From Arminella tubonensis (lineage in GTDB: Bacteria > Pseudomonadota > Alphaproteobacteria > Rhizobiales > Rhizobiaceae): DNA of 64,000 nt. How positions within the stretch are numbered: position 1 is the stretch's first letter; each line of letters begins with the position of its first letter. The position numbers and the translations under genes were made by a program. The stretch is from contig NZ_PCDP01000038.1 in the NCBI RefSeq assembly GCF_003240585.1, positions 248,001 through 312,000 of the forward strand, written 5' to 3'. Below the pieces are notes generated by a model, which was not told where the DNA came from, searched no databases, and saw nothing but the letters and a program-made list of their open reading frames with translations. Positions 3,493-62,670 of this stretch are shown here, piece after piece.

Positions 3493-4836
3493 CTACCGGT
3501 TTTTTGCGGTTGAAGTCGTCGTCTGTGATGAACGCGGCAGGGCGAGGCTGTTGTCGAAAAGCGTCGCATCGACGCTGTCGCCGACCGATCCGACGGTGTT
3601 GCCGACAGACTGGCCGAGCCGGTGGACCTGATCGCCATAGCTCCGACGCGTACGTGGATCGAAGATCGCGATTGGGGCGCTGACCGCGACGCTTGCAGCC
3701 GTTCCGACCGTTTGCGCCGCACCGACCGCGACCGCGCCCAGCGCCTCTCCCACGCCGACATCCGAATCGGTGATCGTCTGCCCCGTCACCAGCCGATCAC
3801 CGATCAGCCTTACGACTTCGGGGCTTTCGGCAAACTTGCCGTGGTTGAGCGAGTCGCCGGATTTCAGTTTGGTCAGATCGATGACGGTAATGTCGTGTTT
3901 TTCGAGCTCCGAGCGATAAGGCTCGACCGAGGGGTCGATCTGGCCCAGGCGATCGACACTGCCGGAAATACGGCGCGACAGGCCGAGGGCTCGGTCATCC
4001 TGGGAGACGAACAGCGTGAAATGCGGCCTGTCCTTGCCCAGCGCCGCAAACTGCTGGCCGAAGACGTCGACATCGAGATCCGGTGAGGCGAGGATGACAT
4101 TTCGAATCTTTGGCGCGACGTGACCGTCCCGGATCGCCATCTGGCGCAGCGCCTCGACCGCCAGCCAGGTGCCCATGGAATGGGCCATGACGGTAATGTC
4201 ACCGACATCCGGATCGTTGGCGACGCGGCGCATCAGTTCCTCAAGCGCGTCGCGGGAGTAGTTGGTGCTTTCCTTGTCGTAATTATAGTCGAAAATGCTC
4301 GCCCGCGATGGCCAGGTGAAGACGATCGGGATGACGTCGGCGTGGCTGTCGTGGACGATCTGCGCAAAGCGATAAACCGCATCCTCGTAGCGGTTGTTGA
4401 ACCCGTGGACGAAGATCAGCACACGCTTGCTCTTCGGCATGTGTGCCTTCAGCCAGGCATGGTATTCCGGCACGTCCTTCAGCGACTTGACATCGACGGT
4501 CACGAAATTCTTCAGCGGATCTCCCGGGAGACGGGTCGGCCATTGCACCTGGCCGACACTACGGTTCGCTTCGGGCGGAATGGATATTTCGACGGAGTCC
4601 ACCTTGAGACTAGCGCCCCGTTCGCCAGAAAAGAGTATCGCCGGATTATCTGCGGATTTTCGTGTCGTCGCCACCAGAAGATCGACCTTCGATGTTCCCG
4701 GCACCGTCGTCTGGGTCGGCTGCATAACGCCGATCGGTCGGCCACCGCAGGCTGCAAGCGAAAGCCCGGCAATCACGGCAAGCACCTTGAAGAATACGCT
4801 TCCGCGCCGGCCGCCATGGGCCGAACCCGTCTTCAT
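3493..4836 (-). CDS. Alpha/beta hydrolase lipoprotein (DUF900-type esterase)
   Basis: From the ATG at 4836 this is 447 aa with a lipoprotein signal ending in LSLAAC (lipid-modified Cys30), so it should sit in the envelope. The catalytic region begins with the oxyanion motif FVHGFNNRYEDA (about 143-154) and has the nucleophile elbow AHSMGTW (Ser220), as in the DUF900 family of alpha/beta hydrolases. Residues 340-447 are Ala/Val-rich and may be a membrane-associated tail. A longer reading from 4962 exists but would bury the signal peptide, so I reject it. The sRNA gene upstream is on the same strand and ends in its own terminator. Substrate unknown. Confidence 0.85.
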   Translation of the reverse strand: MKTGSAHGGRRGSVFFKVLAVIAGLSLAACGGRPIGVMQPTQTTVPGTSKVDLLVATTRKSADNPAILFSGERGASLKVDSVEISIPPEANRSVGQVQWPTRLPGDPLKNFVTVDVKSLKDVPEYHAWLKAHMPKSKRVLIFVHGFNNRYEDAVYRFAQIVHDSHADVIPIVFTWPSRASIFDYNYDKESTNYSRDALEELMRRVANDPDVGDITVMAHSMGTWLAVEALRQMAIRDGHVAPKIRNVILASPDLDVDVFGQQFAALGKDRPHFTLFVSQDDRALGLSRRISGSVDRLGQIDPSVEPYRSELEKHDITVIDLTKLKSGDSLNHGKFAESPEVVRLIGDRLVTGQTITDSDVGVGEALGAVAVGAAQTVGTAASVAVSAPIAIFDPRTRRSYGDQVHRLGQSVGNTVGSVGDSVDATLFDNSLALPRSSQTTTSTAKNR

Positions 4837-4994
4837 CAATCGAAAGCTCCTTGCCTCGGCATTCTTTTTCGCGATCGCCGCCAATATATCGACCGACGAT
4901 TGCAAGACAACAGCCTGCGTCGAGATATGCGACGGTGAAACGGGCTCGCCCAAATTGGCCAATCGCCTGAAATATTCGATGGAAAGGGCGGAAA

Positions 4995-5119
4995 CGAAAA
5001 GAGCCCGACGCGGGAGGAGGATGCGTCGGGCTCTTGATCCTGACCGGCAACTGGGAGGAGGAGGAGTGTTGCCAGTCTATGAAGGAGCGCTGGGAGGAGG
5101 AGCGCGCTTCCTTCGAGGA
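4995..5119 (-). ncRNA. Small RNA with three anti-Shine-Dalgarno hairpin loops
   Basis: Read on the minus strand, this segment folds into three consecutive hairpins (about 5111-5084, 5073-5046 and 5034-5000), each presenting CCTCCTCCC in its loop. The last has a perfect 12-bp stem (AGAGCCCGACGC) followed by TTTT, a good Rho-independent terminator. A -10 box CTATAT lies at 5131-5126. This architecture matches the anti-SD sRNAs of alphaproteobacteria (rhizobial alpha-r14/'cuckoo' RNAs, Rhodobacter CcsR RNAs), whose loops could pair with ribosome binding sites. Family assignment rests on the motif and fold that I see; the ends are estimates. Confidence 0.8.
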
Positions 5120-5125
5120 CAAGTG

Positions 5126-5131
5126 ATATAG
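5126..5131 (-). promoter_or_regulatory. -10 box of the sRNA promoter
   Basis: CTATAT on the minus strand, the alphaproteobacterial housekeeping -10 form, about 7 nt before the inferred sRNA start. The -35 side (CTTCCC near 5153-5148) matches the consensus poorly, so an activator or a different sigma factor may be involved. Confidence 0.45.
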
Positions 5132-5163
5132 ACTAGTGATTTAGTTGGGAAGCACATTCGCTG

Positions 5164-5198
5164 CATTGCAGCATTGCATATTTTGCAATGCTGCAATG
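5164..5198. repeat. 15-bp perfect inverted repeat upstream of the sRNA
   Basis: CATTGCAGCATTGCA (5164-5178) is mirrored exactly by 5184-5198 across a 5-nt spacer. Each arm itself contains two ATTGCA units. No U-run follows on either strand, so this is not a typical terminator. It lies between the aldo/keto reductase stop and the sRNA promoter, where an operator would be expected. Confidence 0.6.
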
Positions 5199-5269
5199 CC
5201 GGACGCCTGAAAAAAGCGCAAATCCGTGAATGCGGCTATTCTTTCCCTTACTGTCCGCCGAAACCCAGG

Positions 5270-6148
5270 TCAGGCCGCCTTGAAGACCTTCTTGCCCTCG
5301 TTGTCGAGCGCCTTGAACTCTTCGTCGGATAGCGTGATGTTCACTGCGGCGACGTTTTCTTCGAGGTGCTTTACCTTGGATGTGCCGGGGATCGGCAGCA
5401 TCACGGGGCTGCGCTTCAGTACCCAGTCGAGCGCGATCTGGCTCGGGGCTGCGTTGTGGCGCTTGGCGATGGTGTCGAGCAGCGAACCTGGCTTGGCAAG
5501 ATCGCCGGCGGCAAGCGGAAACCACGGGATGAAGCCGATATTGTGCTTTTCGCAATAGTCGAGCACGTCCTCGCTGGTACGGTCGACGAGGTTATAGCGG
5601 TTCTGGACGGTCGCGACCTTGAAGACCTTGGAGGCGGCCTCGATGTCGGCGACCGATACTTCGCTCAGGCCCGCATGACGAATGATCTTCGCGTCAAGCA
5701 GCGACTTGACGGCGTCGAACTGTTCCTTTGCCGGCACTTTCGGATCAATCCGGTGAAGCTGCCAGAGGTCGATCTGCTCGACACCCAGATTGCGCAGGCT
5801 CTTATGCGCCTGCTGGATGAGATATTCCGGGCGACCTAGCGGTGCCCATATGTCTGGACCTGATCGCGTCAGGCCCGCCTTGGTGGCGATGACGAGCTTG
5901 GCGTAGGGATGCAGCGCTTCCTTGATCAGGCGTTCCGAAACATCGGGGCCGTAGCTATCGGCGGTGTCGATGAAGTTTACGCCAAGCTCCGGCAAGCGCT
6001 TCAGGGTGCGAATGGTTTCCGCGTGGTCGGCTGGGTCTCCCCATATGCCGCGGCCGGTGATCCGCATGGCGCCGAAGCCCAGGCGGTTGACGGTCAGGTC
6101 GCCGCCGATCTTGAAAGTTCCGGATTTGGATGCGTTCAAATCTGACAT
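5270..6148 (-). CDS. Aldo/keto reductase
   Basis: From ATG 6148 (preceded by AAGGGAAG) the protein is 292 aa, the usual length for an NADPH-dependent aldo/keto reductase with a TIM barrel. The catalytic tetrad is visible: Asp61 and Tyr66 in DTADSYG, Lys90 in ATKAGL and His132 in WQLHRIDP. C-terminal [14 protein letters not shown] is the usual NADPH-phosphate contact. The gene follows an SDR gene on the same strand 50 nt away, and the two may be co-transcribed under the divergent LysR regulator. Substrate unknown; family secure. Confidence 0.9.
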
Positions 6149-15173: not shown

Positions 15174-15250
15174 TGGCGCACCCGGAGCGATTCGAACGCC
15201 CGACCCCCAGATTCGTAGTCTGGTGCTCTATCCAGCTGAGCTACGGGTGC
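15174..15250 (-). tRNA. tRNA-Arg(ACG)
   Basis: The minus strand gives a full cloverleaf: acceptor GCACCCG pairing with CGGGTGC, D-arm with AGCTCAGCTGGA, anticodon loop CTACGAA (anticodon ACG), T-arm with GTTCGAATC, and an encoded 3' CCA after discriminator G. The inosine-modified ACG anticodon reads CGU, CGC and CGA. Its 3' end faces the arsenic operon, but I found no repeat of the 3' end that would mark an integration. Confidence 0.97.
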
Positions 15251-59770: not shown

Positions 59771-62670
59771 GCGGCGGAACCGGCTTTCTTGTCAGCGTTC
59801 AACAAACGGGTATTGGAAGGCGCGATGATGCCGGACGGCATGCGCTGGCGCAGTTCGTCCTCCTCCCCTGACATCACCGCCTTCAGCCGCGCGATGATAT
59901 TGCCCCGCTTGTTGTCGTTGGTGATCTTCTGCCCGACGAGGTCGGTGACGTAGAATGTGTCAATAACCTTCTCGCCGAAGGTGGTGATGCGCGCCGACTG
60001 GATATCGAGCGACAGATCGGACAAGACCGCCGTGATCTCGGACAGCAGGCCTGTGCGGTCGAGGCATTCGACCTCGATGACGGTGAACTTGTTCGACAGC
60101 GTGTTCGACATCGTCACCGACGGCGGGATGACGAAGGCCTTGTTCTTACGGCGGTTCTTCGTCCGCGTCGCGATCACTTCCGGCAGGCGCTTGCGACCGG
60201 AGAGCACATCCTCGATCATCTTGCCGATCGTGGCGGCGCGGCGCAGCTCGTCGGCGTCATCGGCGAACTCGCGGTTGATGTGGATGGTGTCGAGCGCCCG
60301 GCCGTCCGATGTCGTGAAAATCTGCGCGTCGGCGATATTGGCGCCGGCTGCGGCACAGGCGCCGGCGATCACGGTCAACAGGCGCGGATGGTCGGGCGAC
60401 AGCACGGTAATCTCGGTGATGGCGTGGAAGCTGTCGGTCCGCACCATCGTCGACAATGCCTGCCCGGCCTTGTCGGTCTGGCGGATGAACTGGGTATGGC
60501 GGATCTGGTCTTCGAGCGGCACTGACAGGAGATACGGCTGGTAATGAAGCTTGCTGTAGGTCTTGCGGTCCTTCTGGCTCCAGTCGGAAAGTGCGTTGAA
60601 CAGCGCATCGGCCGCCGATTTCGCCCTCTCCTTGCGCGAGACCTCGGAGAAGCCGCCTGCCAGCAACAGTTCGGTCTCGTAATAGAGCGTGCGGAGAAGC
60701 TGGCCTTTCCAGCCGTTCCAGACGCCGGGACCGACGGCGCGGATATCGCAGACCGTCAGGATCAGCAGCATCTTCAGCCGGTCCAGCGACTGCACGCGGT
60801 CGGCGAAATCGGTGATCGTCTTGCGGTCGGTCAGGTCGCGCGTCTGGGCGACCATCGACATCGTCAGATGTTCCTCGATCAGCCAGACGACAATTTCGGT
60901 CTGCTTCGGCGAAAGGCCGAAGCGCGGCCCGAGCTTTCGCGCCACCTTGGCGCCGGCTATCGAGTGGTCTTCCTGACGGCCCTTGGCGACGTCGTGCAGC
61001 AGAACGGCGACATAGAGTGCGTCCCTGTCCTCGACACCCGGCATCAGCTGGTTGACGAGCGGATGCGTGTCGTTGGCATTGCCCTTGTCGATTTCCGAAA
61101 GCACGTCGACGGCGCGAATCAGATGCTCGTCGACCGTATAGTGGTGATACATGCTGAACTGCATCATCGAGACGATCTTGCCGAATTCCGGAATGAAGCG
61201 GCCAAGGACGCCTGCCTCGTTCATGCGGCGCAGGATCAGGGCAGGATCGCGCCTGGAAGTCAGGATCGCTAGGAAGAGCCGGTTCGCCTCTTCGTTTTCG
61301 CGCAGGTCATTGTCGATCAGCGACAGCGACCGCGTCACCCGTTTTAGCGCGTCGGGGTGAAATTCCAGGCCGTTGATGTCGGCGACGTGGAACAGACGGA
61401 TAAGGCTGACGGGATCGCGCTTGAAGACATCGGGATTAGCGAGCGCGATGCGGCCGCGATCCTCGACGAATTCGATCGAGCCGGCGATCTTCCGCGAGCG
61501 ATGGGCAAAGCGACTGATAACGCCGGTCAGACCCGGCGTCGCCTTCGCCTGTTGATCCTCGAGCGCTGCGCAGAGGATGCGCGTCAGGTCACCGACGTCC
61601 TTGGCGACGAGGAAATAGTGCTTCATGAAGCGTTCGACGGCCGACAGGCCTGGACGGGCGTTGTAGCCGAGCGCTTCGGCAATCTCGCGCTGGATGTCGA
61701 AGGACAGCCGCTCCTCGGCCTTGTTGGTCAGGAAATGCATGTGGCAGCGCACCGCCCACAGGAAGTCCTCGGCCTTCATGAACAGGCGGTATTCGTGGCG
61801 GGAGAGCACGCCGAGCTTCACCAGCTCGGCCGGGTCGCGCACGTGGTAGTAATATTTCGAGATCCAGAACAACGTGTGCATGTCGCGCAGGCCGCCCTTG
61901 CCCTCCTTGACGTTGGGCTCGACGAGATAGCGCGTATCGCCGGCCTTGCGATGGCGCTCGTCGCGCTCGGCAAGTTTCGCGGCGATGAATTCAGGGCCGG
62001 TGTTGGTGACGACTTCCTTGTCGAAACGCGTTTCCAGCTCATGGGCCAGCCGCTCCAGGCCGCAGATGTAGCGCATCTCGAGAATGGCCGTCCGGATGGT
62101 CATGTCCGACTTCGACAGGCGGATGCATTCCTCGACGGTGCGGGTGGCGTGGCCGACCTTGAAGCCCATGTCCCAGAGGACATAGAGGACGAATTCGACA
62201 GCCTTGTGGGTGTCGTCCTCGGGCTTCGGCAGGAAGAGGAAGAGCAGGTCGATATCCGAACCGGGCGCCAGCGTATCACGGCCATAGCCGCCGACCGCGG
62301 TGATCGCGAACTTGTCTTTCTGCCTTGGAAAAATGTGCTGGACGGCGAAGTCGTAGAGAACGGTGATCAGCTGGTCCTGCAGCCAGGAAATCCTATAGGC
62401 GCATCGAAGGCCACTTCCGTCCTCGAAGAGCAGTGCCTTGGCCTTTTCGCGACCATCCTGGCTTGCCTTCTTCAAGACAGCCAGCAACGCGTTGCGCAAC
62501 TCGTCCTTCCTGGCACCGTAGTGCTCGACGAGCGCTTCGCATTCCGCCCTGAGCGCGGCGACATCGAGGATGTCGGAGAAATCGGTATCGTTCGTCGCCA
62601 TGCGGGGCCGACTTAGGTCCTGATCGTTGCCTGTGGCCGCTTGCTGGCGCACCTGTAGTTTCGTCTGCAT
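59767..62670 (-). CDS. glnD: Bifunctional uridylyltransferase/uridylyl-removing enzyme
   Basis: A 967 aa GlnD. The nucleotidyltransferase motif is [19 protein letters not shown] (127-145), the HD hydrolase site is [19 protein letters not shown] (about 550-568), and two ACT domains occupy about 735-930. It uridylylates and deuridylylates PII proteins in response to glutamine. A shorter start (MATNDTDF, at 62601) is possible; neither has a strong RBS. The order mutS-(ORF)-glnD-murJ is the rhizobial order. Confidence 0.97.

Follow-up and report, generated by a model that had tools for sequence, protein, structure and literature searches.

What is the three-hairpin array encoded on the minus strand between an aldo/keto reductase gene and a lipoprotein-like hydrolase gene, and is it a novelty or an ordinary member of a known family of small RNAs (sRNAs)? 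The original prediction, made from the sequence alone, had read it as an anti-Shine-Dalgarno (aSD) sRNA of the αr14/cuckoo or CcsR kind that is unusual both in its triple array and in its neighbours. Here, we follow up this reading in the window, i.e. the whole 64-kb stretch of DNA analysed, and in related genomes. One paper, going by its title, is said to build a cuckoo RNA family; in the literature on the αr14 and cuckoo names, nothing further on this locus was found.

In the parts of the published descriptions that are available, αr14 sRNAs have three hairpins, the aSD motif CCUCCUCCC unpaired in every loop and stems that vary, and Sinorhizobium meliloti has six copies (PMC7143759, PMC10746234). 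Similarly, an earlier survey describes the same aSD design for RFMSmelA075, with three hairpins, and RFMSmelA099, with four, which occur in multiple copies per genome and show local synteny in R. leguminosarum (PMC3927594). AbcR and MmgR are reported to be partly homologous to suhB (RF00519; PMC7143759).

Results

The array belongs to the αr14 family

The Rfam model ar14 (RF02344) matched positions 4996-5120 of the minus strand over its full length (model positions 1-123 of 123) with 101.9 bits against a cut-off of 58.8 bits (E 1.2e-17), and both the αr14 assignment and the covariance-model match proposed as a check on it were thus confirmed. By contrast, membership in CcsR was not borne out. 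The CcsR1 model (RF02791), which resembles the locus in having CCUCCUCCC in hairpin loops, aligned to hairpins 1 and 2 (E 0.0049 in a search of 701 bases); however, it scored 22.4 bits, far under its cut-off of 65.3 bits, and contains two hairpins whereas the locus has three. Neither did the suhB search that had been proposed recover the locus: RF00519 had no match at gathering score in the window, nor at E up to 1 in 4700-5400. That the array is a CcsR- or suhB-type aSD sRNA instead of an αr14 RNA can therefore practically be discounted. Along with CcsR1, the Scr3202 model and several microRNA models were rejected in 4700-5400, all being below their own cut-offs, and every one of the microRNA matches lay over an inverted repeat at 5163-5199. 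The sole other Rfam match over cut-off in the window was a tRNA gene (15177-15250, minus strand).

From position 5120 to 4996, the minus strand folds into three hairpins with an unpaired CCTCCTCCC loop in each, as had been predicted (Table 1). Within the window, CCTCCTCCC is present on the minus strand at 5100-5092, 5061-5053 and 5020-5012, and on the plus strand once, at 59859. In line with the argument that such a triple could not occur by chance, simulating the window with a first-order Markov model yielded CCTCCTCCC 0.6 times on average on both strands and triples in 0 of 100 runs, and minus-strand positions 5121-4995 had a minimum free energy (MFE) of -59.6 kcal/mol (z -7.54) that was equalled by 0 of 200 shuffles. 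The unpaired probability was 0.99 or 1.00 for all 27 loop bases. Five further outer pairs, 5120-5116 with 5041-5037, enclose hairpins 1 and 2 in the single-sequence fold and are missing from the consensus of 36 copies. The stem of hairpin 3 (4999-5011 with 5023-5035) is perfect, 13 bp long and GC-rich, and is followed by TTTT, so that this hairpin can double as a terminator; the TTTT behind the array and the CTATAT in front of it, at 5131-5126, are both where the prediction had placed such elements. The three bases (CTC) added in the loop of hairpin 2 recur in three of the 49 same-locus relatives (L067, L068 and L070).

The triple array had been thought unusual for the family. However, three aSD hairpins are what describes αr14 itself in the available parts of the published accounts (PMC7143759, PMC10746234, PMC3927594), and the triple array is therefore a hallmark of the family. 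RFMSmelA075 and RFMSmelA099 of the Rhizobiales, as far as their partly available description goes, are likewise similar to the window copy in the three-hairpin design, the CCUCCUCCC loops, the varied stems and the presence of multiple copies (PMC3927594), except that RFMSmelA099 has four hairpins whereas the window copy has three.

Table 1. Positions of the sRNA gene, its hairpins, its promoter elements and the adjacent genes in the window
Feature	Position	Strand	Description and evidence
αr14 (NfeR1-type) sRNA gene	4996..5120	minus	RF02344, 101.9 bits, full model; fold z -7.54
Hairpin 1	5081..5114	minus	aSD loop 5092-5100; MFE fold, loop unpaired probability at least 0.99
Hairpin 2	5042..5077	minus	aSD loop 5053-5061, three bases (CUC) more than the Rfam model; fold and model alignment
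Hairpin 3	4999..5035	minus	aSD loop 5012-5020; intrinsic-terminator-like stem, then TTTT; fold
-10 element CTATAT	5126..5131	minus	-11 to -6 relative to the beginning of the model; matches αr14 CTTAGAC-N17-CTATAT as given in the available part of PMC10746234
LsrB-like box TGCA-N6-GCAA	5174..5187	minus	-67 to -54; one base off TGCA-N6-GCAT
Perfect inverted repeat	5163..5199		arms of 16 bp separated by 5 bp; covers the conserved GCATTGC promoter repeats
Aldo/keto reductase gene	5270..6148	minus	upstream neighbour, same strand; Pfam PF00248
Lipoprotein-like alpha/beta hydrolase gene (DUF900)	3493..4836	minus	downstream neighbour, same strand; PF05990; Leu-Ala-Ala-Cys near the N terminus

The stems are maintained by paired changes and the family is multicopy

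We aligned 36 copies (31 distinct), i.e. the six copies of the own genome and the 30 best-ranked of 235 matches in the genus, in which paralogues and relatives are mixed. Standard pairs filled 97.4% of the cells, as opposed to 30.8-45.3% when the partner was slid by 1 to 3 columns, both sides had changed at 20 of the 29 pairs, and the covariation score was 0.477 compared to 0.211 after shuffling, with 0 of 500 shuffles as high; in these values, the derivation of the structure from the same alignment and the picking of copies by score both bias toward agreement. Hairpin 1 was the weakest, with 88.3 and 92.4% of cells paired in its two helices. We conclude that the stems are maintained by paired changes.

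All six αr14 copies of the own genome are above the cut-off (97.8-109.5 bits). Matches over the cut-off were found in all 40 genomes of the genus, own genome included, with 3 to 9 in each and 235 in total. Counting the own genome again, αr14 copies above the cut-off were present in 40 of 41 genomes of a family sample, while in a class sample 1 of 142 genomes, which is the own genome itself, was over the cut-off and six more had weaker matches, the stricter scoring filters used for these two samples being such that weak matches can be lost.

The copies differ in the number of loops. In three of those in the own genome (L001, L004 and L006), the CCTCCTCCC motif is complete in two loops only, and the remaining loop keeps TCCTCCC. 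Two others, L002 (G000:C42:4145-4268) and L003 (G000:C9:62066-62191), carry one more CCTCCTCCC hairpin, a fourth, immediately 5' of where the Rfam model begins, and this four-hairpin form resembles RFMSmelA099 as described in the available part of PMC3927594. At least three head-to-tail αr14 matches were found at each of four loci in other Rhizobiaceae genomes, i.e. L151 (G207:C45), L152 (G200:C23), L153 (G216:C1) and L154 (G203:C12), with 6 to 11 CTCCTCC loops in stretches of 651-851 bases that lack any run of five T; some of these matches are below the cut-off, those in G203 partly overlap, and L154 stops at the contig end. To judge from their sequence, these arrays could be transcribed as a single long RNA with many loops.

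The array lies in a genomic place shared with relatives

Loci were fetched via the downstream hydrolase, taking the best 80 of 245 relatives. At 49 of these 80 loci, the array is present upstream of the hydrolase gene on the same strand; because these 49 were selected by a pattern demanding CTCCTCC three times, part of the loop conservation among them follows from the selection itself. The distance between the array and the hydrolase match is 112 to 667 bp at 48 of the 49 loci and 3.6 kb at L116. Upstream of the array, the aldo/keto reductase gene is found on the same strand at 40 of the 49 loci, 38 times at 183-529 bp and at L091 and L094 at 2 kb; downstream, a FAD oxidoreductase gene is found on the same strand at 48, the exception (L118) being a record that ends early. 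Nine array loci are without the reductase gene: four end early upstream, and five (L089, L132, L133, L136 and L139) keep the sRNA and hold 2.0-3.7 kb upstream without a reductase gene.

None of the 31 loci without the array among the best 80 of 245 relatives had an ar14 match over the cut-off, and none had a match at E 1e-20 to the reductase, the dehydrogenase or the oxidoreductase; thus, they look like different loci and not like losses. The closest hydrolases among the same 80 include those of Rhizobium sp. SEMIA4064, R. leucaenae and R. rhizogenes, with 80-81% identity.

These counts contradict the idea that the place between the hydrolase and reductase genes is unusual. Moreover, no case among the best 80 of 245 relatives had lost the stems while keeping the flanks, a pattern that the original prediction had named as speaking against its reading. 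In total, the score over the gathering cut-off, the three hairpins with CCUCCUCCC unpaired in their loops, the variable but kept stems and the several copies per genome are all features of αr14 membership, and we conclude that the locus is a genuine, ordinary member of the αr14 family in a shared place.

The promoter element is conserved among relatives and altered in the window

In the part of the published description that is available, the αr14 promoter consists of CTTAGAC-N17-CTATAT and an LsrB box, TGCA-N6-GCAT, at approximately -72 to -57, and in symbionts it has, in addition, TGC-N11-GCA as an NtrC site between -116 and -100 (PMC10746234). At the window copy, CTATAT is present and is preceded, at normal spacing, by a -35 hexamer that is poor as read by eye, and the upstream element is present in an altered form. 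Its LsrB-like box lies at a distance similar to the published one (-67 to -54 here, versus the -72 to -57 given for αr14 in the partly available source, PMC10746234).

We compared 50 places, i.e. the 49 loci and the window. Because the relaxed forms of the LsrB and NtrC motifs were defined after viewing the alignment, and because the 50 sequences are related, the motif counts are descriptive: the relaxed LsrB-like form TGCR-N6-GCAW was found at 50 of 50 places (0.05 expected from shuffles) and the strict TGCA-N6-GCAT at 11, the window being without it; the relaxed NtrC form TGC-N11-GCR was found at -125 to -80 at 43 of 50, the window among them (1.2 expected from shuffles), and the strict TGC-N11-GCA in the same interval at three (0.3 expected from base shuffles), the window again being without it; and the -10 pattern was satisfied at 29 of 50 places (6.1 expected). 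The window does have a strict TGC-N11-GCA, at -58 to -42, within the inverted repeat. Strict motifs at -65 to -35 were found at two of the 50 places, i.e. the window and L080, and the αr14 promoter descriptions in the available part of PMC10746234 contain no counterpart for an NtrC motif at -58 to -42.

At 48 of the 49 other loci, the promoter element contains GCATTGCTGC(A/G)TTGC direct repeats. In the window, base changes turn this conserved direct-repeat element into a perfect inverted repeat. The repeat occurs a single time in its own genome, and it was absent from the other 147 of 148 genus genomes at up to 3 mismatches. Perfect arms were at most 8 bp long at eight other loci checked, compared to 16 bp in the window.

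Discussion

NfeR1 (Smr14C2/SmelC397) of S. meliloti, an αr14 RNA (RF02344), is the closest guide to what the window copy might do. The two are alike in having three hairpins, CCUCCUCCC in each loop, multiple copies and CTATAT as the -10 element. Compared by description, the window copy is unlike NfeR1 and αr14 in the three additional bases of loop 2, the poor -35 hexamer, GCAA in place of GCAT, and the location of the box inside a perfect inverted repeat.

The analysis directly establishes that the locus belongs to the family, as well as its structure with the covariation in the stems, the number of copies, the synteny and the conserved promoter element. We consider it highly probable that the locus is a trans-acting sRNA gene of the αr14 family with its own promoter and an end at hairpin 3, whose loops block ribosome-binding sites and which is probably activated by an LsrB-kind regulator. 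Transcription would run leftward from a sigma-70 type promoter and would be terminated by hairpin 3. The three stems would keep the three identical CCUCCUCCC loops open, and each loop could pair with a GGAGG-type ribosome-binding site, which would stop translation and favour decay of several mRNAs. The probable activator would be an LsrB-like regulator of the LysR type, acting from the conserved element at approximately -67 to -54. The expression, activator, targets and silencing that we propose for the window copy are modelled on work in S. meliloti. There, in the available part of the report, NfeR1 is expressed as an RNA of roughly 123 nt, its silencing of ntrB depended on the loops, as demonstrated with reporters and a seed-mutant control, the three motifs were redundant on two ABC transporter mRNAs, and the effect on NtrB/NtrC protein was a modest decrease evident only in the absence of chromosomal ntrC (PMC10746234). 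The presumed ntrB of the own genome, i.e. the frame preceding the best ntrC match, which is named by its place only, has the Shine-Dalgarno (SD) sequence AGGAGG with 6 bases complementary to the loop; this match is not telling because any strong SD gives one.

The loops of αr14 RNAs resemble the 3' end of 16S rRNA, and the loop of the window copy fits any GGAGG-type SD. Such loops might mainly titrate SD-bearing RNAs in bulk, as a sponge or ribosome decoy, and not act on chosen mRNAs, and the redundancy of the three loops in the S. meliloti assays is consistent with this; however, single targets (ntrB and the two transporter mRNAs) respond to NfeR1, and a seed mutation in NfeR1 abolished the ntrB response, according to the same partly available source (PMC10746234), which makes bulk titration very unlikely as the main activity. 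About as improbable is that the RNA has no promoter of its own and is derived by processing from the aldo/keto reductase mRNA, at its 3' end. On the same strand, approximately 150 bp separate the reductase stop codon from the array downstream of it, and at the 38 loci mentioned above a reductase gene likewise precedes the array at 183-529 bp. Nevertheless, a conserved promoter-like element and CTATAT lie between the reductase gene and the sRNA, five relatives keep the sRNA without a reductase gene in the upstream sequence, and at L091 and L094 the reductase gene is 2 kb away.

The remaining alternatives accept the αr14 gene and concern its use. It might be a true αr14 gene by descent that is silent or nearly silent, with the working copies elsewhere in the genome. 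The presence of six copies, the poor -35 hexamer and the altered promoter element are in line with silence, as is the report that only one of the six S. meliloti copies was reliably detected by northern blot under the conditions tested (available part of PMC7143759). However, all three CCTCCTCCC motifs and the stems are intact here, as opposed to the two full motifs in L001, L004 and L006, and the locus is common to many Rhizobium records; we regard a silent copy as unlikely. Slightly less credible still is that the promoter of this conserved copy has been rewired, in that the inverted repeat, which also contains the strict TGC-N11-GCA, might recruit a regulator different from, or binding more tightly than, the LsrB-type activator inferred for the relatives.

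Altogether, the known picture is unchanged: the locus adds one clear member to an already characterised family of sRNAs, at a place common to Rhizobium species, and the analysis provides named loci in which the comparison of structure and promoter can be repeated.
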